Below are positions 856-19,666 of a stretch of 21,219 nucleotides of DNA, piece by piece (the stretch's first letter is position 1; the number at the start of each line of letters is the position of its first letter). Made by a program: the position numbers and the translations under genes. The notes below the pieces were generated by a model, which was not told the origin of the DNA, did no database searches, and was given only the letters and a program-made list of their open reading frames with translations. Source of the stretch: a virus; the IMG/VR virus record IMGVR_UViG_3300044960_000054, positions 1 through 21,219 of that record. One strand, 5' to 3'.

Positions 856-870
856 AGGAGATAATATAAT

Positions 871-1221: not shown

Positions 1222-1236
1222 AGGAGATAATATAAC

Positions 1237-2163: not shown

Positions 2164-2181
2164 AGGAGAGAATAATATAAC

Positions 2182-3102
2182 ATGAACCCAATTTTACAAA
2201 TAATAATTTCATCATATAGTAGTAGTAACCAAGGCGGAGGAAATCCATACGCAATATTTGGATATGGATATAATGATGCATATCTTTCAATGACAAACCT
2301 AGTCAGTAATACAGGTGTTGTATCTTCTGACGTGACTGGTGTTGGAACAGCAAGACAAAGTTTAGCAGCAGCGGGTTATGGTGGAGATAAAGCAATATTT
2401 GGATATGGAAGTAGTAGTTCATACCTTTCAATCACAAACCTAGTCAGTAATACTGGTGTTGTATCTGCTGATGTGACTGGTGTTGGAACAGCAAGAATTG
2501 GTTTAGCAGCTGCAGGTTATGGTGGAGATAAAGCAATATTTGGATATGGATGGAGTGGTTCAGGACGTGTTTCAATAACAAATCTTGTCAATAATACTGG
2601 TATTGTATCTTCTAATGTGACTGGTGTTGGAACAGCAAGATATTATTTAGCAGCAGCTGGTTATGGTGGAGATAAAGCAATATTTGGATATGGACATAAT
2701 GGTTCAGCATATGTTTCAACGACAAACCTAGTCAGTAATATTGGTGTTGTATCTTCTGATGTGACTGGAGTTGGAACAGCAAGATATTGGTTAGCAGCAG
2801 CAGGTTATGGTGGAGATAAAGCAATATTTGGATATGGATATAGTAGTTCAGCATATGTTTCAATGACAAACCGAGTCAGTAATACTGGTGTCGTATCTTC
2901 TGACGTGACTGGTGTTGGAACAGCAAGATTTGCTTTAGCAGCAGCAGGTTATGGTAGAGATAAAGCAATATTTGGATATGGAGGTAGTAATTCAGGAAAT
3001 GTTTCAATCACAAACTTAGTCAGTAATACTGGTGTTGTATCTTCTAACGTGACTGGGGTTGGAACAGCAAGACAAAGTTTAGCAGCTGCAAGTTACGGAT
3101 AA
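2182..3102 (+). CDS. Kelch-like repeat protein, copy 5, six repeats
   Basis: The gene codes for 306 residues with the same leader (here SSNQGGGNPY, with fewer glycines) and six repeats. Variable loops are YNDAY, SSSSY, WSGSGR, HNGSAY, YSSSAY and GSNSGN; dipeptides are QS, IG, YY, YW, FA and QS. The framework carries a few private substitutions (NNTGIVSSNV in repeat 3, SNIGVV in repeat 4, YGRDK in repeat 5), so this copy has diverged a little more than its neighbours. It is preceded by the 18-base spacer with AGGAG. A structural or adhesin role is inferred as for copy 4. Confidence 0.85.
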   Translation: MNPILQIIISSYSSSNQGGGNPYAIFGYGYNDAYLSMTNLVSNTGVVSSDVTGVGTARQSLAAAGYGGDKAIFGYGSSSSYLSITNLVSNTGVVSADVTGVGTARIGLAAAGYGGDKAIFGYGWSGSGRVSITNLVNNTGIVSSNVTGVGTARYYLAAAGYGGDKAIFGYGHNGSAYVSTTNLVSNIGVVSSDVTGVGTARYWLAAAGYGGDKAIFGYGYSSSAYVSMTNRVSNTGVVSSDVTGVGTARFALAAAGYGRDKAIFGYGGSNSGNVSITNLVSNTGVVSSNVTGVGTARQSLAAASYG

Positions 3103-3120
3103 AGGAGAGAATAATATAAC

Positions 3121-4050
3121 ATGAACCCAATTTTACAAATAATAATTTCATCATATAGTAGTGGTAACCAAGGCGGTGGCGGCGGAAATCCATACGCAAT
3201 ATTTGGATATGGATATACTAGTACATATCTTTCAATGACAAACCGAGTCAGTAATACTGGTGTTGTATCTGCTGATGTGACTGGTGTTGGAACAGCAAGA
3301 TATGCTTTAGCAGCAGCTGGTTATGGTGGAGATAAAGCAATATTTGGATATGGAGGTGGTAGTTCAGGATATGTTTCAATAACAAACCTAGTCAGTAATA
3401 CTGGTGTTGTATCTTCTAATGTGACTGGTGTTGGAACAGCAAGATATGCTTTAGCAGCAGCTGGTTATGGTGGAGATAAAGCAATATTTGGATATGGATA
3501 TAGTAATTCAGGAAATGTTTCAATAACAAACCGAGTCAGTAATACTGGTGTTGTATCTGCTGACGTGGCTGGAGTTGGAACAGCAAGACAATGGTTAGCA
3601 GCAGCAGGTTATGGTGGAGATAAAGCAATATTTGGATATGGATATAGTAATTCAGGATATGTTTCAATAACAAACCTAGTCAGTAATACTGGTGTTGTAT
3701 CTGCTGATGTGACTGGTGTTGGAACAGCAAGAGGTTGGTTAGCAGCAGCTGGTTATGGTGGAGATAAAGCAATATTTGGATATGGAAGTAATAGTTCAGG
3801 ACGTGTTTCAATAACAAACCTAGTCAGTAATACTGGTGTTGTATCTGCTGATGTGACTGGTGTTGGAACAGCAAGATATGGTTTAGCAGCAGCAGGTTAT
3901 GGTGGAGATAAAGCAATATTTGGATATGGAAATAGTAGTTCAGGAAATGTTTCAATAACAAACCTAGTCAGTAATACTGGTGTTGTATCTGCTGATGTGA
4001 CTGGTGTTGGAACAGCAAGAGTTGATTTAGCAGCTGCAAGTTACGGATAA
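3121..4050 (+). CDS. Kelch-like repeat protein, copy 6, six repeats
   Basis: This is the last copy of the array, 309 residues. The leader has five glycines before NPY, followed by six repeats with loops YTSTY, GGSSGY, YSNSGN, YSNSGY, SNSSGR and NSSSGN and dipeptides YA, YA, QW, GW, YG and VD. It ends LAAASYG and a stop. After it the array signature stops: the downstream spacer has no AGGAG box and instead holds a late promoter for the tail gene. Family role is inferred as for the other copies. Confidence 0.85.
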   Translation: MNPILQIIISSYSSGNQGGGGGNPYAIFGYGYTSTYLSMTNRVSNTGVVSADVTGVGTARYALAAAGYGGDKAIFGYGGGSSGYVSITNLVSNTGVVSSNVTGVGTARYALAAAGYGGDKAIFGYGYSNSGNVSITNRVSNTGVVSADVAGVGTARQWLAAAGYGGDKAIFGYGYSNSGYVSITNLVSNTGVVSADVTGVGTARGWLAAAGYGGDKAIFGYGSNSSGRVSITNLVSNTGVVSADVTGVGTARYGLAAAGYGGDKAIFGYGNSSSGNVSITNLVSNTGVVSADVTGVGTARVDLAAASYG

Positions 4051-4071
4051 TTTTATCATTTTAATAATATA

Positions 4072-4105
4072 AGTAAAAACTATAAATATTTTATATATTT
4101 TTACT
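4072..4105. other. AT-rich inverted repeat around a late promoter
   Basis: AGTAAAAA (4072-4079) pairs with TTTTTACT (4098-4105). The arms continue inward with one mismatch into the TATAAATA box and its complement-like partner TATATA. It could act as a weak terminator for the array or be incidental to AT-richness. There is no GC-rich stem. Confidence 0.35.
4081..4088 (+). promoter_or_regulatory. T4-type late promoter box
   Basis: The sequence is an exact TATAAATA, the T4 late consensus read by gp55-type sigma factors, 35 bases before the ATG at 4124. The same exact box precedes the genes at 7586 and 13325 at similar distance, which supports a real signal despite the AT-rich background. Confidence 0.7.
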
Positions 4106-4123
4106 ATTATTATAAGATTAACA

Positions 4124-5296
4124 ATGGATATTTCAAATCTTTTACACTCAAGTGGAGTTGGTTTAGAATCTCAAGCACATAATGTTTTTGGTGCTGCTGT
4201 AGATGATTTTATTGCACAGGGAATTGATCTTGCTAGAAATAGAATAGTTCCGGAACCACCTGAAATTCCATTTAGTGGAACATGGACATCATCTAGATAT
4301 GCATCAGATATTTCATTTTCACATTATGCTCCTAAACATAGATTTATGTTTAGGGTCACTTTTGAATTTGCAGCACCATATTCAACGTATATAGGTAGAG
4401 GTGTTAGAGATTCTAGCAATATGTTTAACTATCTCATAAAACAGATAGATAAACCAACAATTGTATTTAAATATGAACCCGTAAATTTCTATAATTATAG
4501 AACATCTGTTATAACTGGTATAGAACATCAACAAATATCAATGGCATTTTATGATGATGTTGGAAATAATGTATTTGAATTTTTCGACGCGTATAGAAAA
4601 GCATACTCACCAATATCTAGAATAGATCCAAACTTAAGTTTTCCTACACCAGATCCAAAAGATCTTCAAAATAAAGGTATGGATTTTTCAGATCCAGGAA
4701 ATTATAATGCATGGCATTCTGCTGCTATAGGATCTTTGACAAATGAAAAAATAAATGTTTTAACAAGAATGACTGTTTACCAAATCTTTGGGCATGGACA
4801 ATTTGTTAATCAATTCATATTCATTAATCCTCGTATTTTACAATTTGATTTTGATGATTTAGATTTTGAAGGTGGAAATGGTAATATATTGACCGTTCAA
4901 ATAGAATATGATGCATTAGCAACAACAACAGTAAATCTTGCAGGAATGCAATCAATACCTGGTCTTCCAAATGGTTTACCACATGAAATAAGGCCAACAA
5001 TGTCTAGAGCACCTGGTGCTGGTGGTGGAATTTTAGGTTCTGTTGTAGATAGAGCAGTTAGAGGATTAATAAATGTAGGTACTCGTAACCTTGGTGTTTC
5101 AGCATCACAAGCAACACAAAAAGTTTTAGGTCCAGGTTCTGGATATATAGGATATTCAGTGGGTTCTGTAATATCTGATACATCAAGATATACATTACAT
5201 TCTGCATCACGTGGCGTAAATCAACCATATGCAGGTGTGTCACAACCACCACTTAATGACCCATTTGTATATCCTCAGACATCACGCATGTATTAA
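4124..5296 (+). CDS. Baseplate tail-tube protein, gp54/gp48-like
   Basis: The protein has 390 residues. The core (about residues 70-275) has the feel of the gp19-like tail-tube fold used by T4 gp48 and gp54: a first sheet around HRFMFRVTFEF, then IKQIDKPTIVFKYEPVNFYN, an FYDDVGNNVFEFFDAYRKAY helix, and a second sheet ending in VQIEYDAL. The C-terminal 110 residues are Gly/Ser/Pro-rich and low in complexity. T4 gp54 is 320 residues and gp48 364, so the size is close. Such proteins sit on the central baseplate and start or cap the tail tube. It follows a late promoter and lies 10 bases before the gp4-like gene. Which of gp48 or gp54 it equals cannot be settled here; other tail-tube paralogues remain possible. 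Confidence 0.62.
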   Translation: MDISNLLHSSGVGLESQAHNVFGAAVDDFIAQGIDLARNRIVPEPPEIPFSGTWTSSRYASDISFSHYAPKHRFMFRVTFEFAAPYSTYIGRGVRDSSNMFNYLIKQIDKPTIVFKYEPVNFYNYRTSVITGIEHQQISMAFYDDVGNNVFEFFDAYRKAYSPISRIDPNLSFPTPDPKDLQNKGMDFSDPGNYNAWHSAAIGSLTNEKINVLTRMTVYQIFGHGQFVNQFIFINPRILQFDFDDLDFEGGNGNILTVQIEYDALATTTVNLAGMQSIPGLPNGLPHEIRPTMSRAPGAGGGILGSVVDRAVRGLINVGTRNLGVSASQATQKVLGPGSGYIGYSVGSVISDTSRYTLHSASRGVNQPYAGVSQPPLNDPFVYPQTSRMY

Positions 5297-5306
5297 AAAT
5301 TTTTAA

Positions 5307-5756
5307 ATGGCTAAAGGAAGATTTATACTAAAAAATCCGACTAAATATATTGGTAATGCTAATAATGTATTTTTTCGTTCTTCTTGGGAACTACGTGCAA
5401 TGCAATTTTTTGATATGTCACCATCAATATTACGTTGGGGATCAGAAGAAATAAAGATACCATATATTAAACCAACAGATGGTAAAATACATTATTATTA
5501 CCCAGATTTCTTGATCGTTTATAAAGACAAAAATGGTCAAATTAAACAAGAATTATTAGAAATTAAACCACTTAAAGAAGTAAAAATATCAAAAAAATCA
5601 ACATTATATGATAAAGTTTCTATAGCAATTAATGAAGCTAAATGGAAAGCAGCTACAGCATTTGCACTTCAAAATGGTATGACATTTAGAATATTAACAG
5701 AAGCAAGCATTTTCAAAAATGCTAAACCAATAAAACCAAAAGAAGCACCTATTTAA
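5307..5756 (+). CDS. 4: Head-completion nuclease, T4 gp4-like
   Basis: The protein has 149 residues, matching T4 gp4 (150). It has a PD-(D/E)XK nuclease layout: RSSWELRAMQFFD (E28), YYPDFLI (D67) and LLEIKP (E85, K87). In T4, gp4 is needed for head completion before tail joining, probably by processing DNA ends. It sits immediately downstream of the tail-tube gene with a 10-base gap and no clear ribosome site of its own, so translational coupling is likely. Its 3' end overlaps the convergent homing-endonuclease gene by 8 bases. Confidence 0.85.
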   Translation: MAKGRFILKNPTKYIGNANNVFFRSSWELRAMQFFDMSPSILRWGSEEIKIPYIKPTDGKIHYYYPDFLIVYKDKNGQIKQELLEIKPLKEVKISKKSTLYDKVSIAINEAKWKAATAFALQNGMTFRILTEASIFKNAKPIKPKEAPI

Positions 5757-7497
5757 TGACTTTCCATTCATAGACATCATTTCCACAATCCCAAATTCTA
5801 TTCCATCCATTATTTTTCATATTTTCCCATTCAGTCAATTTAGGGTCAAATGTTTCTAATAAATTTTTTAATTTATGTTTTTGAAATTGAGTTCTATTAA
5901 ATAATTTTTTATTTTTAAAATACCAATAATTTGGTGGTGTTTCATTTATTTTTTTAAATCCTAATCTATCATACAATAATCCAATATTCCATCTTTTATC
6001 TGAATATGATATTATTGATGTTGGACAATTATTTTTTATAAAATATGAAAATAATTTGCTAGCACCGCCAATTACATTTGTGTTTAATAAAGTTGCAAAT
6101 CTAATAAGTTCCCATTCATATTTTTTATTAAATCTTGGAATTCCAAAGGTCATGCATGCAACGCATACATTGTTATAATATAATCCTATAGATATGTTAG
6201 AATGTGCATATCCTTGTAAATGATTTTTATTTAAAAATTCTATTACTTTAGAATTACTCATTTCTTTAATTATGCAATTTCTTGCATATAATTTATATTG
6301 CGTCACTTTTAAAAGATTTGAAATTTTAGATTTTACAATTTCTTTTTGTTGTTCCCATTCATTTTCAAATATATGAATAATTTTTATTCCATTTTTTGCG
6401 GCAATATTTGTTTTTTCTATATGATATGTTTTAGAAATATTTAATAATTCAGAATGCCAATATAGTCCATTTATTTCAAATCCAATATTTTCTGAAGGGA
6501 TAAAAATATCAATTTCTTTTGGTGATATTATAGTTCTATCATTTGTTAATGTTGTAAATCCTAAAGATTTAATAAATTCATTTATTTCATTTTGTATTAT
6601 TGAAATATTTGATGGATTACATGATGGACATATTGGTTCAGAACCATTATTAATATCATCTTCAAAAAGTAAATTGCATTTGTTACATTTATATTTGTGT
6701 TTTATATGGCAGCCTAAATAATCTTCCAATGTAAATAATGGAATAACATGTTTAAATTGTTGAATTCTTTTAAATGCTTCTTCTTTTTTTCGTTTTTGAA
6801 GTTTATTTTTAAAAGACGATGTTTGACTAAAATATTCAACTCCATATTTTTTGAATGTCGTTGTTTTTATTTTATTAATAATTTGCTGTTTTTCAACATC
6901 AGATTTGTTTTTATTTTTTATTAATATTTTATTTTTAACATATTCTGATTTAGAAATATGATCAACTCCATATTTATCATTAATTTTTTGTTTTATTTTA
7001 TTTTTTATAATATCACTTTTAAAAACATTATCTACACCGTATCGTTCTAAACATGTTTTTTTAATTTTTGCTTTAATTATGTCTGATGATGATATATTCT
7101 CTACACCATATTTTTTAATATATGTTTCTTTTGTTTTTTTAAAAATATCGTTTCTAGACCATCCACGTCCACCATATTTTTCTAAAATTTTATCATTATA
7201 AGATTTTGTTTTTAGAGAGCATGATATTGAACAAGTATTTTGATATCCTTTAGTGAAATTTAAAAATTTGGTAGGTTTACCACAGACTTCACATGTTTTT
7301 AGTTCAACGTTATAATATAATCTATAAAGTAGTTCAACATAATTTTTGGGTATTTCATTTACTCCAAAAAGAATATTTAAATATTTTTTATATTTAGTGT
7401 TAAGAATTTTTTTTGTATTTTTATTTAATTTATTATCCCTAATAAGTAATTGTGAAATTATTTTTTTAACGTTCATACGCAAAATTAAAATAATCAT
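5749..7497 (-). CDS. Free-standing homing endonuclease, EDxHD/Vsr-like
   Basis: The protein has 582 residues and is coded against its surroundings. It carries a C4 zinc site (C69, C72, C89, C93); then at least four tandem DNA-binding-like repeats of the form YGVENISSSDIIKAKIKKT (about residues 105-235); a second C4 site (C271, C274, C290, C293); and a Vsr-like nuclease segment (about 300-395) with EIDIFIP (D330), FEINGLYWHSE (E341, H348) and IIHIFENEW. A C-terminal domain with a GNAT-like look follows (HLQGYAH to SYSDKRWNIGLLYDRLGF). This order is known from mobile endonucleases of T4-like phages. It lies between gp4 and gp16 and converges on gp4. Two starts are possible, 7497 and 7476 (MNVKK); neither has a clear ribosome site. 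It is probably mobile DNA, very A/T-rich, and shows no frameshift. Confidence 0.85.
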   Translation of the reverse strand: MIILILRMNVKKIISQLLIRDNKLNKNTKKILNTKYKKYLNILFGVNEIPKNYVELLYRLYYNVELKTCEVCGKPTKFLNFTKGYQNTCSISCSLKTKSYNDKILEKYGGRGWSRNDIFKKTKETYIKKYGVENISSSDIIKAKIKKTCLERYGVDNVFKSDIIKNKIKQKINDKYGVDHISKSEYVKNKILIKNKNKSDVEKQQIINKIKTTTFKKYGVEYFSQTSSFKNKLQKRKKEEAFKRIQQFKHVIPLFTLEDYLGCHIKHKYKCNKCNLLFEDDINNGSEPICPSCNPSNISIIQNEINEFIKSLGFTTLTNDRTIISPKEIDIFIPSENIGFEINGLYWHSELLNISKTYHIEKTNIAAKNGIKIIHIFENEWEQQKEIVKSKISNLLKVTQYKLYARNCIIKEMSNSKVIEFLNKNHLQGYAHSNISIGLYYNNVCVACMTFGIPRFNKKYEWELIRFATLLNTNVIGGASKLFSYFIKNNCPTSIISYSDKRWNIGLLYDRLGFKKINETPPNYWYFKNKKLFNRTQFQKHKLKNLLETFDPKLTEWENMKNNGWNRIWDCGNDVYEWKVIK

Positions 7498-7545
7498 ATA
7501 TATACATTATTTAAATATCTATAATCACATTATTTAAAGATAAAC

Positions 7546-7553
7546 TATAAATA
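7546..7553 (+). promoter_or_regulatory. T4-type late promoter box
   Basis: An exact TATAAATA lies 32 bases before the ATG at 7586, between the divergent homing endonuclease and the small terminase gene. It should drive the terminase-accessory operon. Confidence 0.7.
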
Positions 7554-7585
7554 ATTAATATCTTAATTAAATAATGGAGATTTAA

Positions 7586-8071
7586 ATGTCTATAGAATCT
7601 AGAATACATCCATTAGAGGAAGTATTTGATATGACGGCAGGTGAATATTTTGAAAATAAACAAGAATATGATGAAGTTTTACAATCTGAGTTACCATCAA
7701 CTATAATTAATACTTCTAAACTAGCAGTACAGCAAGAAATTATTAAAGATGAAGAAGACACTAATATAGATAATAATATTGATAATATTTATAATAAAGC
7801 ATTGGCTGCATTTAATCAACAAACAGAAATGGTTGAAGTTGTTGATCCTAGATATGCTGCTAGAACAGCCGAAGTTGCAGCAAATTATCTTAATATAGCA
7901 CTTAATGCAATGGCTATAAAATCAAAAGTAAAAAATGATAGATATAGACGTAGTAGTTCTGGATTTATACCATATACAAATGGTCCAAAAACTGTTAATA
8001 ATAATTTAATAGTTGCAGATAGAAATGATATATTAAAAATGATGAAACAGGATAAGGATAAAGAAGAATGA
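7586..8071 (+). CDS. 16: Small terminase subunit, gp16-like
   Basis: The protein has 161 residues; T4 gp16 has 164. The acidic N-terminal third is followed by a helical central segment (about 85-115, DPRYAARTAEVAANYLNIALNAMA) that resembles the gp16 oligomerisation/DNA-recognition core. A C-terminal tail (VNNNLIVADRNDILKMM) matches the pattern of the gp16 C-terminus. gp16 forms a ring that recognises DNA and regulates the large terminase. GGAG at 7576-7579 lies 6 bases before the ATG. Its stop overlaps the next start (ATGA). Identity rests on size, context and pattern rather than a hard catalytic motif. Confidence 0.7.
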   Translation: MSIESRIHPLEEVFDMTAGEYFENKQEYDEVLQSELPSTIINTSKLAVQQEIIKDEEDTNIDNNIDNIYNKALAAFNQQTEMVEVVDPRYAARTAEVAANYLNIALNAMAIKSKVKNDRYRRSSSGFIPYTNGPKTVNNNLIVADRNDILKMMKQDKDKEE

Positions 8072-9042
8072 AGATGACATTTAAACAGTTTATTAATGAT
8101 GAAGTAATGTTGATTAATGAGGGTAAAAAATTCGTATCATCTCTTAAATACGATGAAAATAAGAATATTTTTAAAATATTAAAAAAAGATTGTTCTGAAT
8201 TTTTACGTGTTAAAAATCAAATTTCAATATTTAGGGGTTTTAGTGGTGGTAATAAATTGTGGTATATTTCTACACCATCAAAATTTACTCGTACTTCAAA
8301 ACAAGATGCTGGTGGAAACATCTATACATTGTTATTTGATAACTTAAATTCATGGCAAAAATTTCCAAAAAGAAGCAAAAGTTTAATATGTACTACAGAT
8401 TATCAATATTCAAATGAATTTGGACGTACATACTTAGTAATACCAAAAGATGGAGCTAAATGGGGTATTTGTCCTGAAGGAGATATTTGGAAAAGTTTCA
8501 ATAGGACGTCAGGAAAATATAATATTTGGTTAGAAGATTTTAATTTTTTATTCATCAATACTTTTAAATTATTAAATAAACATTTTCCTGAAAAATTTAA
8601 AAATTTTAAAGTTGATGAATTAAAATTTTCAAAAGATTTTAATTATTTGTTTAAAGTTTTACTCGCAATGGATGAATGTATAGACATAATTATATCAGAT
8701 GAATTTATGAGAAAAAATAAACGAAAGTATGAAAATATTATTGATAATCAAAATGCGCTATTGAAATTTTTAATCTATAAAAAACAAAAAACTAATAAAA
8801 ATATTGGATTTATTTTGGAAGAATTATTTGACCCAGAACAAAATAAATTTGTATTAGCAAATAATTTAAATATTTCAAAAATGGTTAATAAAAATAACCA
8901 TAATGAAGTATGGACAGATAGTGATTGTATTTTAATTAATATTGATAAATTTATTAATTTTTTAGAAAAAGAAGAAGGTTATTATATTGATGACGATAAT
9001 GAAATTTTAAAATTTATTAGATATAAATTATTTAGTTATTAG
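8068..9042 (+). CDS. Unknown protein with capsid-targeting-like leader; faint ART-like pattern
   Basis: The protein has 324 residues and its ATG overlaps the gp16 stop. It begins MKMTFKQFINDE, close to the leader of T4 packaged internal proteins (MKTYQEFIAEA). The N-terminal half shows ISIFRGF (R56), a YISTPSKFTRTS stretch, FPKRSKSLICTTDYQYSNEFG (104-119) and YLVIPKDG. The R / S-T-rich strand / turn order recalls ADP-ribosyltransferases, but I cannot place the usual catalytic glutamate, so this is only a suggestion. The C-terminal half (160-324) is helical, Lys/Asn-rich and unrecognised. In T4, gene 17 would follow gene 16 here, so this is an insertion. It could be an injected effector. Confidence 0.7.
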   Translation: MKMTFKQFINDEVMLINEGKKFVSSLKYDENKNIFKILKKDCSEFLRVKNQISIFRGFSGGNKLWYISTPSKFTRTSKQDAGGNIYTLLFDNLNSWQKFPKRSKSLICTTDYQYSNEFGRTYLVIPKDGAKWGICPEGDIWKSFNRTSGKYNIWLEDFNFLFINTFKLLNKHFPEKFKNFKVDELKFSKDFNYLFKVLLAMDECIDIIISDEFMRKNKRKYENIIDNQNALLKFLIYKKQKTNKNIGFILEELFDPEQNKFVLANNLNISKMVNKNNHNEVWTDSDCILINIDKFINFLEKEEGYYIDDDNEILKFIRYKLFSY

Positions 9043-9071
9043 AGATTATATAGAAAAAGGTTATTAAAAAC

Positions 9072-9803
9072 ATGATAACATTTAAAGATTTCATAATAGA
9101 AAGTACTTTAGATAAAGGTATTCTAAAAGCAATATTTGTTGTTGGAATTCCTGGTGCTGGTAAAAGTTATACTATTAAAAGACTTTATGGTACTATATCA
9201 CCAGTTGTGGTAAATACTGATAAAGCAACAGAGTTTTTATCTAAAAAATTAAATATTCCATCAAAAAATGAAACATGGCCAATAATAAAAAATGATGCCC
9301 AAAGAATAACAAAATCACAATTATTTCATTATTTAAATGGATTATTACCATTGTTTATTGATGGTACATCAAATGATGTATCTAATATATTGAATCGTGT
9401 TGGAATATTAGAATCTATTGGCTATGATGTTGGAATGGTTTTTATCAACGTGTCATTAGATACTGCTATTAAACGAGTAGAAGAAAGAGCTAAAAAAATA
9501 AACAGATATGTAAATTTAGATTTTATAAAAAGAACATTTGATATATCTCAAGAAAATAAAAATTATTTTAAAAATAAATTTGATTTTTTTTATGAAGTTA
9601 ATAATGACGAAAATGAAATGACAGATGAAGTATTGAATAAAGTATTTAAAAAAGTAACCAATTTTTATAATAGTGAATTAAAAAATCCAGTCGGAATTAG
9701 AACAATAAAAAAATTATCTGATAAAAATAAAAAATATTTAGTACCAGATATTTTTTCAAAAGAAGCATTGCAAAAAAAGGTTGATAGTTGGTATAAAAAT
9801 TAA
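9072..9803 (+). CDS. P-loop kinase, zeta-toxin/polynucleotide-kinase-like
   Basis: The protein has 243 residues. After the leader MITFKDFIIES, a Walker A GIPGAGKS (25-32) follows a hydrophobic strand (AIFVV). VVNTDKA (D50) fits the zeta/Pnk substrate-binding position. LFIDGTSND (95-102) is a Walker-B-like strand, and VSLDTAIKRVEERA (127-140, R135 and R139) fits an arginine lid. The family phosphorylates nucleotides, nucleic-acid 5' ends or UDP-sugars; the substrate cannot be read here. The leader resembles that of the preceding gene and of the LRR proteins, suggesting packaging in the head. AAGG at 9057-9060 lies 11 bases before the ATG. Confidence 0.75.
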   Translation: MITFKDFIIESTLDKGILKAIFVVGIPGAGKSYTIKRLYGTISPVVVNTDKATEFLSKKLNIPSKNETWPIIKNDAQRITKSQLFHYLNGLLPLFIDGTSNDVSNILNRVGILESIGYDVGMVFINVSLDTAIKRVEERAKKINRYVNLDFIKRTFDISQENKNYFKNKFDFFYEVNNDENEMTDEVLNKVFKKVTNFYNSELKNPVGIRTIKKLSDKNKKYLVPDIFSKEALQKKVDSWYKN

Positions 9804-9839
9804 TCCTAGTTATTAATTTTCATTAATTTATTATTACAA

Positions 9840-9847
9840 AATAAATA
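9840..9847 (+). promoter_or_regulatory. Possible late promoter variant before the ketosynthase
   Basis: AATAAATA differs from the T4 late box only at the first base and lies 25 bases before the GTG start, in the 69-base gap after the kinase. The same variant occurs on both arms of the palindrome at 19592-19613. In AT-rich DNA it could be chance. Confidence 0.35.
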
Positions 9848-9872
9848 AGCTAAATATTATTGGAGATAATTT

Positions 9873-11084
9873 GTGACAAACTCAATTGTTATAACTGGAT
9901 TATCTATTTTAAATAGTTTGGGTAAAAGTCCATCAGAAGTATGGTCAAAACTATATCAAAATGCTGATACTTTTAAAATAATTAAAAATTATAATCCAGA
10001 AGATTATCCATCTATATCCAATATAACGAAAGCATTTGAATACGATTTAACAGAAGATATTATTAATGCTTCAAATAATGATTTTATAAAAAATTCTTTT
10101 TTTGGTAAAAATACAAAATCGGCAATCTTTTTAGCAAAAGAAGCAATTAAGGATTCTGGAATAAATTTAGAAAAAAATAAAAATGGAGCTATATTTTTTT
10201 CTACTATTACGTCTGAAAGTATAGAAAGAATAGATAGAATTAAACATATTTTATATAGTAATAAAAAATATGATCCTAGATATATTATATCATCAGAACA
10301 GGATTTTGTTGGCGGTATATTAGCTGGTATTTATGATTTAATTGGTCCAAATATTTCATTAACATATGCATGTGCGTCTTCAATAATGAGTATAGATTAT
10401 GCAATAAAAATGATAAATGAAGGTGAAATTGATTATGCAATAATAGGAGCATGTGATATAAATTCAAATCCTATATCTGTACATAAATACAAAATGTTAG
10501 GCGCATTATCAACCGATAGATGTATTCCGTTAGATAAAAATAGAAATGGTATGGCTGTTGGTGATGGTGGAGGATTTATAGTTTTAGAAAAAAAATCATC
10601 TGCTATTGCTAGAGGAGCTAATATTTATGTAACAATTAAAAGTATAGGATATGGAACTGATAAATATCATCCAACATCTCCATCTAAAACTGGTGATGGG
10701 CTTTTTAGAGTTGTGAATTCTGTTCTAAAAAAAGCAAATCTTAAATATTCTGATATACCATATATTAATGCTCATGCAACAGGAACTTATATAGGTGATA
10801 AAGTAGAGTATGAATCATTGGATATGATATTTCCTAATTCTATTGTTAACGCGTTTAAAGGTTATATTGGCCATTTAACATCATCATCAGGAATTTCAGA
10901 ACTTATTATGTGTATATTATCTATGAAAAATTCTACAATAATTAAAACAGCAAATGTAACAGAACCAATGAATGGTAAATTAAAAATATGTACAGAAAAT
11001 ATATTAAAAGATATTAATTTATGTCTTAAAACATCATTTGGTTTTGGCGGTAAATGTGCAGCAATAATTTTGGAAAGAAGTTAA
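9873..11084 (+). CDS. Beta-ketoacyl-ACP synthase (KAS I/II, FabF-like)
   Basis: The protein has 403 residues, near the usual 410 of FabF/FabB, and spans the full thiolase fold. Catalytic residues of condensing enzymes are all visible: the nucleophile Cys167 in YACASS, His301 in NAHATGT, and His334 with Lys329 in KGYIGHLTSSSG. Spacing is close to E. coli FabF (163, 303, 340, 335). The C-terminal SFGFGG loop is also present. The enzyme condenses malonyl-ACP with an acyl-ACP or acyl group, extending fatty-acid or polyketide chains. The start is GTG (9873), with GGAG at 9862-9865. It is unusual in a phage: it lies inside the terminase operon with no ACP, ketoreductase or dehydratase gene visible, so it would rely on host acyl-ACP. 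Codon composition resembles the neighbouring phage genes, suggesting long residence. A role in altering host lipids or an acylated product is inference. Confidence 0.93.
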   Translation: MTNSIVITGLSILNSLGKSPSEVWSKLYQNADTFKIIKNYNPEDYPSISNITKAFEYDLTEDIINASNNDFIKNSFFGKNTKSAIFLAKEAIKDSGINLEKNKNGAIFFSTITSESIERIDRIKHILYSNKKYDPRYIISSEQDFVGGILAGIYDLIGPNISLTYACASSIMSIDYAIKMINEGEIDYAIIGACDINSNPISVHKYKMLGALSTDRCIPLDKNRNGMAVGDGGGFIVLEKKSSAIARGANIYVTIKSIGYGTDKYHPTSPSKTGDGLFRVVNSVLKKANLKYSDIPYINAHATGTYIGDKVEYESLDMIFPNSIVNAFKGYIGHLTSSSGISELIMCILSMKNSTIIKTANVTEPMNGKLKICTENILKDINLCLKTSFGFGGKCAAIILERS

Positions 11085-11091
11085 TAATATT

Positions 11092-11703
11092 ATGAAAGAA
11101 ATATGGTATATTCATGGTGCTAATTGTTCACCATTATCGTTTAATAGAATAATTGATAAATTACCAAAACATAAATTTGAATTTATTTCGTATAATAGTA
11201 AGATGTCTTTAGATGAAATTTTACATCACACTTGGAATGAACTCCCAGAAAAAAATCAAATAGATTTAGTTGGACATAGTTTAGGTGGAGTTATTTCTAT
11301 TTTGATTGCACATGAATCTAAATTTCCAGAAGCGAATAAAAAAATAAATATAAGAAATGTTGTAACTATTTCTAGTCCATTAGGAGGAAGTATTCATGCA
11401 AATATTCTTAAATACATTTATCCAGAATATAAAATTCTTAAAGGTATAAGTACAAAAAGTGAATTTATTGAAGGATTATTACGTCTTGGTATAGCATGTC
11501 CTACATTATCACTTGTTTCTATTTCTGGTAACTTACCAACTATTAAAGAAAAAAATGATGGGGTAGTGACAATTAGTAGTCAGAAGGCTATAAAAGGTCC
11601 AAAATATGTAGAGATAAATGCAAATCATTTTGAAATTTTACAATCAGATGAAACGATAAAAGAAATAAAAAATTTCCTTTTTAATGAAAACGTAATAATA
11701 TAA
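11092..11703 (+). CDS. Alpha/beta hydrolase, lipase/esterase-like
   Basis: The protein has 203 residues and a compact alpha/beta hydrolase layout: an oxyanion strand WYIHGAN (5-11), nucleophile elbow GHSLGG (61-66, Ser63), a probable acid in NDGVVT (Asp156) and a probable base in ANHFEIL (His179). PGAP1-like and lipase-like enzymes share this arrangement. No signal peptide or membrane segment is seen, so it should act in the host cytoplasm or after lysis. It begins 7 bases after the ketosynthase and lacks a clear ribosome site, so translation is probably coupled. Pairing suggests a thioesterase or lipase acting on the product or substrate of the ketosynthase; the substrate is not known. It ends 11 bases before the large terminase. 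Confidence 0.85.
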   Translation: MKEIWYIHGANCSPLSFNRIIDKLPKHKFEFISYNSKMSLDEILHHTWNELPEKNQIDLVGHSLGGVISILIAHESKFPEANKKINIRNVVTISSPLGGSIHANILKYIYPEYKILKGISTKSEFIEGLLRLGIACPTLSLVSISGNLPTIKEKNDGVVTISSQKAIKGPKYVEINANHFEILQSDETIKEIKNFLFNENVII

Positions 11704-11714
11704 AATATTTTTAT

Positions 11715-13271
11715 ATGCCAGCAAAAGGTAATGTATTTTTAAAAAAAGCAAATTTAGAAACAGAGTTTACACCAGAGCTTATTAGAGAATTGCATAAGTG
11801 TTCTGTTGATCCAATTTATTTTTTAAAAAATTATGTAAAAATTCAACATCCAGTCCATGGTTCAATTCCATTTAAGTTATATGATTATCAAGAAGAAATT
11901 ATTAACTGTATTCATAATAATAAAGACAGTTTAATCTTAACGGCCCGACAGATGGGAAAAACGACTACAATAGCTATGTATTTATTGTGGTTCTCGATCT
12001 TCAACTTTGATAAAACAGTTCTAATAGCATCTAAGGATAACTCTCATGCTATTGATATTCAAGATAGGATTAAATATGCGTATGAGGAATTACCTGATTG
12101 GCTAAAGCCTGGTATTGTTTGGTATAATCGCCATTCAATGAAATTTGATAACGGTTCGCAGATTGTATCATCTGCAACAACAGAAAAAACTGGTAGAGGA
12201 TATTCTATATCATTTTTATATCTTGACGAATTTGCGTTCATTAATCCACGAATTCAGACTAGTTTATGGTCATCAATAGCACCAACACTTGCTACCGGTG
12301 GTGCATGTGTTATATCATCTACACCAAATGGTGATTCTGATTTATTCGCTAATTTATGGCGTGGGTCTTTAGCAAAACTTAACACTTTTGCAAATGTTGA
12401 AGTAAAATGGGATAGACATCCTGATCGTGATGAAAAATGGAAAGCTGAAATGCTTGGAAAATTGGGTGAATTACAATTTAGACAAGAATGCGAAAATGAG
12501 TTTTTATCATCTGACTCATTATTGTTTAATAGTATAAAATTAAATTCATTATCAACAAAACCTCCTATTATGATAGACAATGGTATTGCATTTTGGAAAG
12601 AACAAATTGGTGGACTTGGAAAAACTTATTTAGTTGGAATTGATATATGTAAAGGATCAGGAAATGATTTTTCAACTATAGAAGTTTTAGAATTTCCTAG
12701 TATGGAACAAATAGCTGAATATAGAACAAATGATATTCTTACACATAGATTTTATGATCGTGTTAAATATTTACTTAATAAACTTTCATTACCTGATAAA
12801 AATGGACAGAGAGCAGAAGTTATTTGGTCATTTGAAAATAATGGATTAGGTGAAGCATTTGCTGCATTGTATAATGTTGACGATAATCCACCCGAGTATG
12901 CAGAATTAGTTAATTCAGATCAATCTGGAAAACATTTAGGAATGGTTACAACTGGTAAAAATAAAATAATATCATGTTTACAATTTAAATCATTAGTAGA
13001 AAAAATTAAAAATAATTTAACTATTAATTCTAATATTTTACTTTTTGAAATGAAAAATTTTGTTGCATCTGGTGGTAGTTATGCGGCAAAAGCTGGTGCC
13101 ACAGATGATTTGATATCTGCTATGTTGATTATTATGCAACTTCTTAAAAGAATGGCAGAATATGATCAAAAAGCATATGAAACAGTGTATAAATTTGATG
13201 AAAATTATTATGATCCAACATCAGATATTGTAGATAACGAAGAAATTCCTATACCATTTGCTATAAATTAA
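11715..13271 (+). CDS. 17: Large terminase subunit, gp17-like
   Basis: The protein has 518 residues. The N-terminal ATPase has Walker A TARQMGKTT (76-84), Walker B LYLDEFAF (168-175, D171 and E172) and the coupling motif SSTPNG (201-206). The C-terminal RNase H-like nuclease has VGIDICKGSGNDFS (D310), WSFENNG (E374) and GATDDLIS (D464, D465). It is the motor that cuts and pumps DNA into the prohead. It is shorter than T4 gp17 (610), mainly at the N-terminus and tail. All catalytic motifs are intact. The gene follows the accessory insert rather than gene 16 directly and has no strong ribosome site. Confidence 0.95.
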   Translation: MPAKGNVFLKKANLETEFTPELIRELHKCSVDPIYFLKNYVKIQHPVHGSIPFKLYDYQEEIINCIHNNKDSLILTARQMGKTTTIAMYLLWFSIFNFDKTVLIASKDNSHAIDIQDRIKYAYEELPDWLKPGIVWYNRHSMKFDNGSQIVSSATTEKTGRGYSISFLYLDEFAFINPRIQTSLWSSIAPTLATGGACVISSTPNGDSDLFANLWRGSLAKLNTFANVEVKWDRHPDRDEKWKAEMLGKLGELQFRQECENEFLSSDSLLFNSIKLNSLSTKPPIMIDNGIAFWKEQIGGLGKTYLVGIDICKGSGNDFSTIEVLEFPSMEQIAEYRTNDILTHRFYDRVKYLLNKLSLPDKNGQRAEVIWSFENNGLGEAFAALYNVDDNPPEYAELVNSDQSGKHLGMVTTGKNKIISCLQFKSLVEKIKNNLTINSNILLFEMKNFVASGGSYAAKAGATDDLISAMLIIMQLLKRMAEYDQKAYETVYKFDENYYDPTSDIVDNEEIPIPFAIN

Positions 13272-13275
13272 TAAA

Positions 13276-13283
13276 TATAAATA
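13276..13283 (+). promoter_or_regulatory. T4-type late promoter box
   Basis: An exact TATAAATA lies just after the terminase stop and 41 bases before the ATG at 13325. It is followed by the strong ribosome site AAAGGAGA at 13308-13315. Confidence 0.65.
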
Positions 13284-13324
13284 ATATGAGTTATAATAAA
13301 TTTTGTTAAAAGGAGATAATTATT

Positions 13325-13651
13325 ATGGGATTTTTTCAAAAATTAAAGAAATTTTTAGGTATTGAACAAGGTGCACCAGAACCAGTGCTTGATGATTTTA
13401 AACCTTTTGGGTTTAAAGATATAATAACAGGAAAAGTAGTATTACCAGTTGAAGAAAAACCAGTTGAAGAAAAACCAGTTGAAGAAAATGATGATTTTAA
13501 ACCTTTTGGGTCTAAAGATATAATAACAGGAAAAGTAGTATTACCAGTTGAAGAAAAACCAGTTGAAGAAAAACCAGTTGAAGAAAAACAAAACAAACAA
13601 AAATTTAAAAAGGCACCTAGAGTTCCACGTGTTAGAAAAACAAAAAAATAA
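13325..13651 (+). CDS. Small PVEEK-repeat protein
   Basis: The protein has 108 residues. A short amphipathic N-terminus (MGFFQKLKKFLGIEQ) is followed by two copies of a 33-residue unit (DDFKPFG, KDIITGKVVLP, then three PVEEK-type pentapeptides) and a very basic C-terminus (KAPRVPRVRKTKK). The alternating acidic Pro-rich and basic parts suggest a disordered linker or a scaffold/DNA-associated protein; I recognise no family. It has its own late promoter and a strong ribosome site. The stop falls right after a run of seven A, and the next frame downstream (+1) is open, so this may be the N-terminal part of a longer protein. Confidence 0.72.
   Translation: MGFFQKLKKFLGIEQGAPEPVLDDFKPFGFKDIITGKVVLPVEEKPVEEKPVEENDDFKPFGSKDIITGKVVLPVEEKPVEEKPVEEKQNKQKFKKAPRVPRVRKTKK
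13391..13588 (+). repeat. Tandem 99-bp duplication
   Basis: Two 99-base units (13391-13489 and 13490-13588) differ at two positions. Each ends in three copies of a 15-base PVEEK unit. The number of units is likely to vary between isolates. Confidence 0.85.
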
Positions 13652-13712
13652 TATAAAATCAGAAGGTTATAGAAAAATATCTCTTAAGGATTTAGAAGAG
13701 ATATTTTTTAAA

Positions 13713-14135
13713 ATGATAGAATTTGATAATATTAAACATTATCAAAAAACTGGTATGTTTAAGTATCGAAAAGCTAAAGTTGGTGAAAAAATAGTTACTA
13801 TTATTGATGGTAAAAAAGAAACACAAAATGTTGCAAATGAAAATTCTTGGATCATAACAGGTCCTAAAGGCGAAGAGTATATTATTGATGATAAAACACT
13901 CAAAAGTAGATATGAAATTGTTGATGATAATACAGTTAAAGCAATTGGTGAATGTTGGGCTTTTGAAAATAAAGAACATTTAATGTTTAAAGCATCCTGG
14001 GGCGAAGATATGGTTGCTGATCCTGGTGATATGATTGTATCTATTAATAAAAATGGTTCAGAACCATATAGAATAGAAAAAGAAATATTCAAAAAAACAT
14101 ATAAAGAAATTAAAAAGGCTAATAAAATTAATTAA
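13713..14135 (+). CDS. PGDYG-like domain protein
   Basis: The frame contains YRKAKVGEK, then NSWIITGPKGEEYIIDDKTLKSRYE (about 13843-13920), ECWAFEN and VADPGDMIVSINKNG. This is the arrangement I associate with the PGDYG family of phage and giant-virus proteins (function unknown). The first ATG after the upstream stop is 13713, giving 140 residues. However, coding-like sequence (SEGYRKISLKDLEEIFFK) extends upstream to about 13653 without an ATG, so the gene may start at a non-standard codon or continue from the preceding gene by a frameshift. A longer in-frame start at 13548 exists, but its first 35 codons only re-read the PVEEK repeat out of frame, so I did not use it. Confidence 0.65.
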   Translation: MIEFDNIKHYQKTGMFKYRKAKVGEKIVTIIDGKKETQNVANENSWIITGPKGEEYIIDDKTLKSRYEIVDDNTVKAIGECWAFENKEHLMFKASWGEDMVADPGDMIVSINKNGSEPYRIEKEIFKKTYKEIKKANKIN

Positions 14136-14144
14136 TTATTATAG

Positions 14145-14173
14145 TTTACTTTCTATTTTATTTGTGATATAAT
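14145..14173 (+). promoter_or_regulatory. Sigma-70 promoter with extended -10
   Basis: TTTACT (14145-14150), a 17-base spacer and a perfect TATAAT (14168-14173) preceded by TGA form an extended -10 promoter. It lies 34 bases before the ATG at 14208, with AAGGA at 14194-14198 as ribosome site. It differs from the late boxes and points to early transcription by host polymerase. Confidence 0.75.
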
Positions 14174-14207
14174 TATCCTATAAAATATAGATGAAGGATG
14201 ATTTCAG

Positions 14208-15440
14208 ATGTCAGTTGTTGAAACTTTTGAAACCAAAACATTCAGAATTCCTGATGAAAATCTAGAATTGTTTAAAGATAAGTTTCAAAAGCTTGCTAAA
14301 CGTGCTAAGAAACTTAATTCTGAACCTATTGCTTTCACAATTGTTTCAGAAGAAATTGTACCAATTCTCGATAAAAATAATAAAGAAACTGGTGAATTTC
14401 AACGCTTTCATAATGTGAAAGTAACGGGTCAAGCCCCAAAACTTAAAGGTTGGGAATTTGTTGGTACTCTTGATCATAATTATGCTGAAGATGGTTCAAT
14501 TGTTAACATCTTCCGTACTGTACCTGGTAAAAAAATACCACATCAATATCACAATGTTGGCACAAATTGTGATCATTGTGGAAAAAATATCTATCGAAAA
14601 GATACATTCATTGTTAAAAATAGTAATAATGAATTTAAACAAGTTGGTCGTTCATGTCTTAAAGATTTTCTTGGACATAAAAGTCCAGAAGCAATTGCTC
14701 AATATGCTGAATTAATTTCTTCTTTTGAAATATCTTTTTCAAAATTTGAGGGTGATTGTGGTATTAATCGTGAACCACTTTACAGAAACATTGATGCTTT
14801 AACCATAGCTGCTGCTTGCATACGTGAATTTGGTTTTGTATCAAAGTCTGCCGCAAATAACAATGAAGATACTATTTCAACATCAGAAATGGTTTATTAT
14901 AATCTTAATCCATGGAATAATAAAAATTATAGAGTTGATATTCTTCCAGAAGACAAGATTACTGCTCAAGATACGCATAATTGGATTATCCAGAATAATT
15001 CACAAAGTGAATTTATGTTTAATCTTAAACAAATTGCAAAACTTGAATATGTTAAAAATAAACATTTAGGATTTATTTCTGCTGCAGTGTCATCCTTCAT
15101 TAAGGAACGTGATAAGCTCAAATTTGAAAAAGAAACAGTCGTAAATGAACCACTTGGCAAAGAAGGTGAACGTATTACTTTTAATGCTACTGTTGTAAAT
15201 ATTAAAGAATTTCAAGGTAGGTCATTTAATTATTATGATTCTGGGGTTCGTATGATTTATACTCTTAAGACTGATGATAACAAAGTCGCAGTTTGGTTCA
15301 GTGGACCGGGTAAATTGGAACTTAATAAAAAGGTTACTATAACTGGTACTATTTCTGAATCACATATTGATGATTATGCACCATTTAAAGGATGCCTTAA
15401 AACTATTCTAAAGCGTTGTAAAGTAGTAAAAACAAATTAA
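14208..15440 (+). CDS. Phage protein with zinc-finger and OB-like domain
   Basis: The protein has 410 residues and I do not recognise a named family with certainty. Visible parts are a mixed N-terminal domain (1-110), a probable zinc-binding loop CDHCGKNIYRKDTF (C121, C124) continuing to VGRSCLKDFLG (C150), a helical middle, and a C-terminal beta-rich segment (about 310-408: GERITFNATVVNIKEFQ, MIYTLKTDDNKVAVWF, KVTITGTISES) that looks like an OB fold. Zinc finger plus OB fold suggests nucleic-acid binding. It follows a sigma-70 promoter and precedes the HD-Pnk gene by 49 bases, so a joint early role in nucleic-acid repair or protection is plausible. Confidence 0.78.
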   Translation: MSVVETFETKTFRIPDENLELFKDKFQKLAKRAKKLNSEPIAFTIVSEEIVPILDKNNKETGEFQRFHNVKVTGQAPKLKGWEFVGTLDHNYAEDGSIVNIFRTVPGKKIPHQYHNVGTNCDHCGKNIYRKDTFIVKNSNNEFKQVGRSCLKDFLGHKSPEAIAQYAELISSFEISFSKFEGDCGINREPLYRNIDALTIAAACIREFGFVSKSAANNNEDTISTSEMVYYNLNPWNNKNYRVDILPEDKITAQDTHNWIIQNNSQSEFMFNLKQIAKLEYVKNKHLGFISAAVSSFIKERDKLKFEKETVVNEPLGKEGERITFNATVVNIKEFQGRSFNYYDSGVRMIYTLKTDDNKVAVWFSGPGKLELNKKVTITGTISESHIDDYAPFKGCLKTILKRCKVVKTN

Positions 15441-15489
15441 AAATATATGTACTTTTTATGATATTCAAATAGTTAAATTTTAATTAGAT

Positions 15490-16647
15490 ATGTCAGATAC
15501 TACTCGTTTTCAAACATTTATTAAACAATTTCAGACTACTCAATTGTGGTCTGATATGGAGAAGTGTGTCGAAAATTCTCCTTGGCATCGTGAATCAAAT
15601 GTCGCTGAACACACAATGATGCTGTATCGTTTTTATCGTGATAATCTAATGTCGTCACGTACTAAACGTCAGCAAATTCTCACGTTTCTTGCTATGATGT
15701 TTCATGATGTTGGTAAACCTTCTGCTAAGGTTGAAAAATACCGCGAAGATCGTGGTAACTATTTTGTATTTGCTGGTCATGAACAAATTTCAGCACGACT
15801 TTGGGAAGATTATGCAGTTGGAAATTGGTCATATTTGAAAAACCTTTTTCCTGAAATTAATATCGATGATATTTTCCGTATTGGATTTATCATTGAAAAT
15901 CATTTGCCATTTACTATTACAAATCAAAAAGCTCTTGAAAAGTTTAGTAATGCAGTGCATTACACTCTAGAATCAGATAAAGTTGCATATTTTGATTGTC
16001 TAACATCCGATCAACATGGTAGGATTTCAGATAATCAAGAAGAAAAACTTAATCGATTTAACGAATGGATGGAAAAGTTTTGCAATATCAATAATAATAC
16101 AATTATTAATAATGAAGAAAATATCAATAAGGTTATATACCTGTTGATTGGTGCATCTGGTTCTGGAAAATCTACATACGCTAATAGTATTCGTCACCAA
16201 TATGGTGACGACAATGTAGGTGTATTTTCATTAGATACTTGTCGTCTTGATTTTGCTAAAAACTATATTGTCGATTGGGAAACCAAAAATGATATTGATT
16301 TTTATCGTGAAGCATTTGCACTCTGTGTTTCTAAACAAAATGAATTCAATGTATTTGCCGACAAATCATTTAGGAATATTCTTGATAAGTTTGATTATGT
16401 GATTTCTGATAACACTAATGTGTCTAAAAAGTCTAGACATAAATGGACAATGATGGCACATAATAAAGGATTTAAAGTTATTGGTGTGTTATTTCCAATC
16501 AACAAAGAAAAACTTTTAAATCGTATGGTTTCTCGTGTAGATAAAAAAGTTCCCGAAGAAGCAGTTCTCCGTCAATGGAATCAAATTTCATATCCACGAA
16601 TAGGAGATGATGTTGATGGTGTATTTGTTGTAAGTAATAATATTTAA
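15490..16647 (+). CDS. HD-Pnk: HD phosphoesterase fused to 5'-polynucleotide kinase
   Basis: The protein has 385 residues in two domains. The N-terminal HD domain has H33, H41 (NVAEHTMMLYR), the HD pair H72-D73 in FHDVGKP, H97 and H138. The C-terminal P-loop kinase has GASGSGKST (221-229), SLDTCRLDF (D249, R252), SDNTN (D307) and lid arginines in NRMVSRV (R345, R349). The order matches the HD-Pnk family described from Runella, an end-healing enzyme with 2',3'-phosphoesterase and 5'-OH kinase activities. It is analogous in purpose to T4 Pnkp but with an HD instead of a HAD phosphatase. It could repair RNA or DNA broken by host defences; no ligase is visible in the window. The start has only a weak ribosome site. 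Confidence 0.85.
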   Translation: MSDTTRFQTFIKQFQTTQLWSDMEKCVENSPWHRESNVAEHTMMLYRFYRDNLMSSRTKRQQILTFLAMMFHDVGKPSAKVEKYREDRGNYFVFAGHEQISARLWEDYAVGNWSYLKNLFPEINIDDIFRIGFIIENHLPFTITNQKALEKFSNAVHYTLESDKVAYFDCLTSDQHGRISDNQEEKLNRFNEWMEKFCNINNNTIINNEENINKVIYLLIGASGSGKSTYANSIRHQYGDDNVGVFSLDTCRLDFAKNYIVDWETKNDIDFYREAFALCVSKQNEFNVFADKSFRNILDKFDYVISDNTNVSKKSRHKWTMMAHNKGFKVIGVLFPINKEKLLNRMVSRVDKKVPEEAVLRQWNQISYPRIGDDVDGVFVVSNNI

Positions 16648-16701
16648 AAAATATTTACATTTAAATTTATATTATCTTTTAAGGAAATTGTTTTTGTTAT
16701 T

Positions 16702-17676
16702 TTAATTCCAAATAAAATCTTCATCAGTATTAATAAATGAATGGTCTGGTTCTGATTTAAATTTGTTATTATTACAAATAAAATCACGATGTACTTCTCT
16801 TGGTGCACCTTCTAATGATGTTAATTTATTATATGAACAATCAAAAAAACCACCAACTTTTCTTGGTCCATCCTGTAATGATGTTAATTGATTATGTGAA
16901 CAATTAAAATAACTGCCCACGTCTTTTGGTGCACCTTCTAATGATGTTAATTTATTATATGAACAATCAAAAAAACCACCAACTTTTCTTGGTCCACCCT
17001 GTAATGATGTCAATTGATTATTTGAACAATAAAAATCACGACCAACTTCTCTTGGTGAACCATATAATGATGTTAATTGATTATTTGAACAATAAAAATC
17101 ACGACCAACTTCTCTTGGTGCACCTTTTAATGATGTTAATTGATTATTTGAACAATAAAAATCACGACCAACTTCTATTGGTCCACCTTCTAATGATTTT
17201 AATTGATTATGATAACAATCAAAATTACCACCTACTTCTCTTGGTGCACCTTTTAATGATGTTAAATGATTATATGTACACACAAAAAAACCACCAACTT
17301 CTCTTGGTCCACCTTGTAATGATGTTAATTGATTATTTGAACAATCAAAAATACCACCTACTTCTCTTGGTGCACCTTGTAATGATGTTAATTGATTACG
17401 TGAACAATTAAAATAACCACCCACTTCTCTTGGTGCACCTTTTAATGATGTTAATTTATTATGTTGACAATGAAAATTACCATCTACTTCACCAAATTGA
17501 ACTGGTATATATGTTAATCTTTTATAAGAAATATCAACATCTCCATTAACATCAACTATACCATTATCATGAATAGTATAATTTTTAATGTTCATCTTTT
17601 TTAACCAATCCTCTATTTCTTGTTTATTGGTTAATAATTTATATTCTTCTTTTAAAAATAATTCTTGTAATTTCAT
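16702..17676 (-). CDS. Leucine-rich-repeat protein A (12 repeats)
   Basis: The protein has 324 residues. It begins MKLQELFLKEE, followed by a conserved cap domain (about 12-60, NYTIHDNGIVDVNGDV, YIPVQFGEVDG) and then about 12 repeats of 21 residues with the pattern REVGG.F.CS.NQLTSL.GAP. The NxLxxL spacing is leucine-rich-repeat-like, and a Cys occupies a conserved position in each unit. It ends in a C-terminal cap (SEPDHSFINTDEDFIWN) shared with the plus-strand paralogue. One unit (RKVGGFFDCSYNKLTSLEG) is duplicated exactly. The function is likely protein binding; the target is unknown. It is convergent with the HD-Pnk gene and lies downstream of the PcfJ gene on the same strand. The leader suggests packaging in the capsid. 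Confidence 0.85.
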   Translation of the reverse strand: MKLQELFLKEEYKLLTNKQEIEDWLKKMNIKNYTIHDNGIVDVNGDVDISYKRLTYIPVQFGEVDGNFHCQHNKLTSLKGAPREVGGYFNCSRNQLTSLQGAPREVGGIFDCSNNQLTSLQGGPREVGGFFVCTYNHLTSLKGAPREVGGNFDCYHNQLKSLEGGPIEVGRDFYCSNNQLTSLKGAPREVGRDFYCSNNQLTSLYGSPREVGRDFYCSNNQLTSLQGGPRKVGGFFDCSYNKLTSLEGAPKDVGSYFNCSHNQLTSLQDGPRKVGGFFDCSYNKLTSLEGAPREVHRDFICNNNKFKSEPDHSFINTDEDFIWN

Positions 17677-17737
17677 TTCCAGATAAATTCTCTACCAATA
17701 TTAATTCTTCTTTTAAAAATAATTCTTGTAATTTCAT
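17677..17737 (-). pseudogene. Scar of a deleted LRR paralogue
   Basis: Read on the minus strand this stretch is the first 33 bases of an LRR gene (coding MKLQELFLKEE), joined directly to the last 28 bases of an LRR gene (those that code for INIGREFIW in the paralogue at 19667), and then the ATG of the gene at 17676. The 28-base end and the following ATG match the junction at 20362-20391 exactly. The whole repeat body is missing. As read it would make a 33-residue out-of-frame peptide. Confidence 0.8.
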
Positions 17738-17739
17738 TT

Positions 17740-19566: not shown

Positions 19567-19591
19567 TTTTTAAGCTCCTAATTGACAAATA

Positions 19592-19613
19592 TTTAATAAA
19601 TATATTTATTAAA
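19592..19613. promoter_or_regulatory. Perfect palindrome, possible divergent late promoters
   Basis: This 22-base perfect palindrome has AATAAATATATTTATT as its centre. It contains AATAAATA on each strand, one base off the T4 late box, facing the PcfJ gene (37 bases before its start) and the LRR array. It could be two divergent late promoters or a protein-binding site; its A/T-only content weakens the case. Confidence 0.4.
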
Positions 19614-19666
19614 AAATATAAAATATGTTAAAATACTTAAATATAGGTAATATTATTAATAATAAA

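Follow-up and report, generated by a model that had tools for sequence, protein, structure and literature searches.

Phage control of host lipids is so far known mainly through isolated desaturase genes. The passages of PMC11480375 and PMC8224337 that cite cyanophage lipid desaturases (Roitman et al., 2018) deal with desaturases only and mention no ketosynthase. In freshwater pelagimyophages, fabF together with a stearoyl-CoA desaturase is noted in one sentence of annotation (PMC7029224). An acpP-fabF-fabG gene set has been reported in Rhodobacteraceae prophages (PMC8224337); because its gene order is that of the E. coli fab operon, it is probably host DNA at the prophage edges. Within the open-access literature, a scope that leaves out most subscription papers and preprints, we found passing mentions only, and neither a viral ketosynthase clade nor its desaturase operons had been described. 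Here we analyzed a predicted beta-ketoacyl-ACP synthase-type ketosynthase (KS) gene located near the terminase genes of a phage genome fragment, together with its viral relatives.

Genomic context of the KS gene

The window, by which we mean the whole 21.2-kb viral record, is judged to be a fragment of a giant (jumbo) bacteriophage genome. The KS gene (9873..11084, plus strand; 403 aa) stands in a series of genes that begins with a tail tube protein (4124..5296, plus strand) and a TnsA-like endonuclease-fold protein (5307..5756, plus strand), the latter fold being assigned by family search. Based on synteny with the PA5oct gene annotated as 'head closure', the TnsA-like product is probably a head completion/closure (gp4-like) protein. 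A DUF7487/homing-endonuclease-like gene on the minus strand (5749-7497), with relatives in PA5oct (L270), L285, and L294, is inserted between the gp4-like gene and terS (7586..8071, plus strand), which encodes the terminase small subunit (phrog_445, E 6.5e-5) and has homologues in L003 and L004. Downstream of terS are a phage protein of unknown function (8068..9042, plus strand) and a P-loop kinase of the zeta-toxin/polynucleotide-kinase-like type (9072..9803, plus strand), which match the N-terminal and middle parts of phrog_12810, respectively. The KS gene is followed by a serine alpha/beta hydrolase (11092..11703, plus strand; 203 aa) and by terL (11715..13271, plus strand), the terminase large subunit of the jumbo-phage type (phrog_36964, E 3e-78), whose best relative is that of Xanthomonas phage XacN1 (384 kb), with 44% identity. 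The original prediction placed the KS between the small and large terminase genes; it lies inside the terS-terL region but adjoins neither gene, as two genes intervene on the terS side and one on the terL side.

Two repeat-containing regions were also observed. Positions 1-4050 hold a long glycine-rich repeat tract (YGGDKAIFGYG...) split into open reading frames that mostly restart with MNPILQII, and this tract is tail-fibre-like and possibly frame-variable. Three paralogous proteins with NQLTSLQGAPREVGG repeats are encoded at 16702-17676 (minus strand), 19625-20392 (plus strand), and 20389-21219 (plus strand), with a mutual DNA identity of about 86-87%.

Comparison of the predicted enzyme with FabF

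The KS reading frame is complete, with a GTG start codon and a GGAG motif a few nucleotides upstream, and the Pfam ketoacyl-synt N (E 2.6e-28) and C (3e-24) domains span nearly the whole protein. Cys167, His301, Lys329, and His334 align to Cys163, His303, Lys335, and His340 of FabF, and Phe391 aligns to the FabF gate residue Phe400; the catalytic four and the Phe gate are invariant across 21 aligned phage KSs. The domain matches and the alignment agree with the original prediction of an intact, full-length condensing enzyme with these four residues. The predicted structural model (pLDDT 85.6, pTM 0.90) has a duplicated, FabF-like thiolase-type fold, and among solved structures it resembles FabF enzymes most closely (TM 0.92). 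Judged by its two ketoacyl-synt domains, its Cys-His-His set with Lys, and the modeled FabF-like fold, the predicted protein belongs to the elongating-type condensing enzymes. The suggested comparison with KS-beta proteins rules out a chain-length factor, in which the active-site Cys is replaced, usually by Gln, whereas Cys167 is kept here.

To compare the carrier-binding surface, we took the list of AcpP-contacting residues of E. coli FabF from PMC7138838, where contact region 1 comprises Lys65, Arg68, and Lys69, and region 2 includes Lys131, Lys132, and Arg206. The region 1 residues correspond to Ile72, Ser75, and Phe76 in the window KS; in region 2, Arg206 corresponds to Gly210, and only Lys131 and Lys132 are kept. 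The acyl-pocket motif Gly107-Ile108 of FabF is replaced by Ile112-Thr113. Structure prediction returned a FabF-like model, and the alterations affect the acyl pocket and most of the residues through which FabF contacts ACP. The window KS thus probably acts as FabF does, but with a different carrier partner or chain length. It scores 232.8 bits against the TIGR03150 equivalog model, below the curated cut-off of 493.75, falls below the cut-off of every NCBIfam KS family, and has no match in PHROG.

The window KS groups with a viral clade

We searched IMG/VR with alignments, single-sequence queries being too narrow, and recovered numerous viral KSs; the contigs that carry them reach 364 kb. A FastTree phylogeny with 183 sequences places the window KS within a clade of 62 sequences, all viral (at least 43 members after dereplication), and none of the 86 bacterial KSs in the tree lies inside it. 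A mixture-model tree of 69 rows splits 31 phage rows from the 38 others with a support of 100/100 and with no bacterial row on the phage side. Nested and sister positions of the window KS relative to the clade are not distinguished by the AU test (p 0.46) and its branch is long (1.83); it may be sister to the viral clade rather than inside it. With a phage HMM from whose input it was excluded, the window KS reaches 354 bits, versus 252 bits with a FabF HMM, while every bacterial KS tested prefers the FabF HMM over the phage HMM. Taken from the 100/100 viral side of the tree and this HMM preference, the predicted window KS is a member of a phage-lineage KS grouping.

The original prediction had treated the enzyme as an ordinary FabF/FabB and proposed a phylogeny to find its donor. 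Joining the window KS to the nine FabF rows was rejected by the AU test (delta lnL 91, p 0.0006), and the phylogeny yielded no donor among the 86 bacterial KSs or in 398 Pseudomonadota genomes, which speaks against a recent capture of a bacterial fabF. HMM scores across the 398 genomes contained no outlier, all being in the FabF-like range with a maximum of 347.5 bits; for bacterial phyla beyond Pseudomonadota, the sample consisted only of 80 genome-contig loci, chosen in order of their similarity to the window KS, plus several single genomes. When the window KS and three further members of the clade were used as queries, no close relative turned up in 50,697 GenBank phage records; most of the 'phage' matches were either contigs lacking annotation or host genes, for example fabB of E. 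coli. A shortened KS-like protein of about 314 aa is encoded among virion genes of a complete siphovirus genome (MW202545; L008:5593-6537).

Desaturase linkage and the proposed function

A desaturase gene lies within 4 kb of the KS gene in 20 of the 43 dereplicated clade members (the other 23 have none in this interval), whereas none of the 87 terL loci has one. For this comparison, the Fisher p value of 6e-12 overstates independence; the linkage nevertheless changes at least six times on the tree. The control terL loci were drawn from other phage lineages, and the desaturase linkage is partly inherited. Over whole records, KS-clade sequence (1.86 Mb) holds 33 desaturases and terL-relative sequence (5.42 Mb) holds 3, or 17.7 versus 0.55 per Mb. 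The gene order varies: desaturases precede the KS in L188 and L198, the KS is followed by two desaturases in L189, L199, L201, L203, and L204 and by one in L206, L217, L219, L223, L228, L254, L255, and L261, and in L193 (IMGVR_UViG_3300013126_000105; 3989-9059) it is followed by five desaturase genes in a row. Seven of nine desaturases tested score above the Pfam PF00487 cut-off; one from L189 is just under it, and one from L193 has no match at E 0.001.

Since its relatives adjoin fatty-acid desaturase genes, we read the window KS as a working elongating enzyme of a phage lineage that acts on acyl-ACP as part of a lipid-remodelling gene set, and assign this reading a probability of roughly 0.6; we infer both the substrate and the partner. 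The gene neighborhoods suggest that phages of this clade remodel lipid chains in infected cells, and the lipid-directed role of the original prediction finds support in these adjoining acyl desaturases. During infection, Cys167 would be loaded with an acyl chain from acyl-ACP, and the KS would decarboxylate malonyl-ACP and add two carbons to the chain, after which host reductases and a dehydratase would finish the cycle. The longer chains, in sister phages potentially also desaturated, would be incorporated into membrane lipids of the infected cell. Either the host or another part of the phage genome could supply the ACP.

Several observations weigh against this reading, namely the lost FabF ACP contacts, the changed pocket, the long branch, and the lack of ACP enrichment in KS records versus controls (4/26 versus 6/42). 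In its favor, four clade records carry an ACP gene, some next to desaturases. The 21-kb window itself has neither a desaturase nor an ACP gene, which also weighs against this reading; the original prediction, which had no ACP or other fatty-acid gene in view, missed the adjacent hydrolase, although this is a gene of the terminase operon. Stand-alone ACP genes are present in the large viral contigs L171, L173, L174, L175, L176, L354, and L355, adjoining desaturases in L171, L174, L176, and L355, and ACP domains are fused to the C-terminal end of a 429-aa phage protein (L353) and to the N-terminal part of a 348-aa protein (L357). In a 286-kb viral contig (L090:6977-9158), ACP, desaturase, and KS genes are contiguous; the KS of this set lies outside the viral clade, and the set may have been assembled independently.

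An unlikely, though not negligible, alternative is that the KS serves to build a dedicated product, either acyl or a short polyketide, instead of chains for the bulk membrane. Examples would be a small lipid signal or an acyl group attached to glycans of the virion or the cell surface. Some clade members do stand among biosynthetic genes. In a 364-kb viral contig (L209:1933-6727), the KS occurs together with a flavin monooxygenase and an SDR/enoyl-ACP-reductase-type gene, a trio that is a possible phage biosynthetic cluster, and in T4-like clade members the KS adjoins 2OG-Fe(II) oxygenases. A pocket and ACP-contact residues unlike those of FabF would also suit such a product. However, desaturases, which act on chains of acyl lipids or of acyl-ACP/CoA, are the commonest partner in the clade, and we found no tailoring gene beside the window KS and identified no acyltransferase. 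Another neighborhood, at about 7100-11100 in L012, L016, and L063, consists of consecutive genes for Hsp20-like and ClpS-like proteins, the KS, a heme-oxygenase-like protein, and one or more bilin-reductase-like proteins, with names assigned by eye.

The altered ACP face and pocket could alternatively belong to an enzyme that acts as a block or drain on the fatty-acid synthesis of the host. Such an enzyme would tie up ACP or decarboxylate malonyl-ACP to no product, thereby freeing acetyl-CoA and reductant for phage replication. There is a precedent in that a gate-mutant FabF mis-primes and unproductively extends malonyl-ACP (PMC7138838). We regard this explanation as doubtful, since the full condensation set (His301, His334, Lys329, and the Phe gate) is present in 21 of 21 phage KSs, beyond what a decoy needs, and the desaturase linkage indicates chain making.

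The KS gene in the terminase operon

Only 7 nt separate the KS stop codon from the hydrolase gene, and 11 nt separate the hydrolase from terL. The hydrolase has a lipase/TesA-like alpha/beta fold, and its Ser63-Asp156-His179 triad is intact and invariant. This arrangement would fit a two-enzyme unit in which chain extension by the KS is followed by release of the free acid, with the hydrolase acting as a thioesterase. However, the hydrolase lies directly 5' of terL in eight relatives (L003, L004, L274, L275, L276, L283, L284, and L301), none of which has a KS at the site, and so serves the terminase lineage independently. The original prediction proposed a search for KS genes near the terminase genes of other phages; 42 terL-relative records, five isolate genomes among them, gave no KS hit at any position in a search that had no positive control of its own but used the same alignment that found KSs in 10 of 10 bacterial genomes. 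No hydrolase homologue was found in the other KS loci examined. These distributions make the two-enzyme unit very improbable and the hydrolase unlikely as a dedicated KS partner; by its conserved position, the predicted hydrolase is native to the terminase operon and not evidently a partner of the KS. Because the relatives keep the hydrolase-terL pair without a KS, we consider the KS gene a sporadic insertion in the accessory region between terS and this pair. Other interruptions were seen in this region: in L003 (10569-13179), an insertion encoding an HNH/intein-like protein splits terL, and a gap before or within terL also occurs in L276, L284, and L301.

The KS is nevertheless a resident gene of this phage, since a second contig (L002) is 100% identical to window positions 3656-20412, across 16,757 bp, and the GC3 and codon usage of the KS are the same as those of its neighbors. 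Some GenBank 'phage' records do carry apparent stray host fabF/fabB genes, but contamination, a decaying passenger gene, or the chimera with a bacterial segment that the original prediction had named as its refutation can be practically discounted in view of the identical 16.8-kb contig, the matched composition, the intact frame, and the all-viral clade. The stray genes are found in OR84xxxx and MT83xxxx records, which are unannotated contigs with bacterial fabF/fabB-like genes that are probably host contamination.

Comparison with known systems

Phage desaturases were already known; what appears new is the viral KS clade and its desaturase operons. With a viral KS family often found in desaturase operons, the control of lipids by phages would extend from unsaturation to chain length, and not every phage gene annotated as 'fabF' has to be contamination or stolen from a host. 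A more ambitious interpretation, which we hold tentatively and at somewhat worse than even odds, is that phages possess a long-diverged KS family of their own, present neither in the bacteria sampled nor in the phage records of GenBank. Together with phage-encoded desaturases, joined in some genomes by an ACP of the phage, this family would form a partly autonomous elongation-desaturation system making chains that the host does not, and its KS gene would be able to enter a packaging operon, here that of an unrelated jumbo phage. The window KS provides a defined enzyme for expression and assay.

The cyanophage lipid desaturases, as cited, resemble the present genes in being phage desaturases that serve as auxiliary lipid genes. 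The Rhodobacteraceae acpP-fabF-fabG set (PMC8224337) likewise places fabF in phage regions, but is not a desaturase-linked set. The pelagimyophage genes (PMC7029224) share with the clade a phage-borne KS with a desaturase, known there from the annotation sentence alone; in contrast to the present analysis, that passage contains no family, phylogeny, or operon analysis. In comparison with FabF (KAS II; TIGR03150), the window KS is only about 25-30% identical and is without Lys65/Arg68/Lys69 and the GSGIGG pocket motif, whereas the fold (TM 0.92), the length, the Cys-His-Lys-His set, the Phe gate, and the GFGG loop are common to both.
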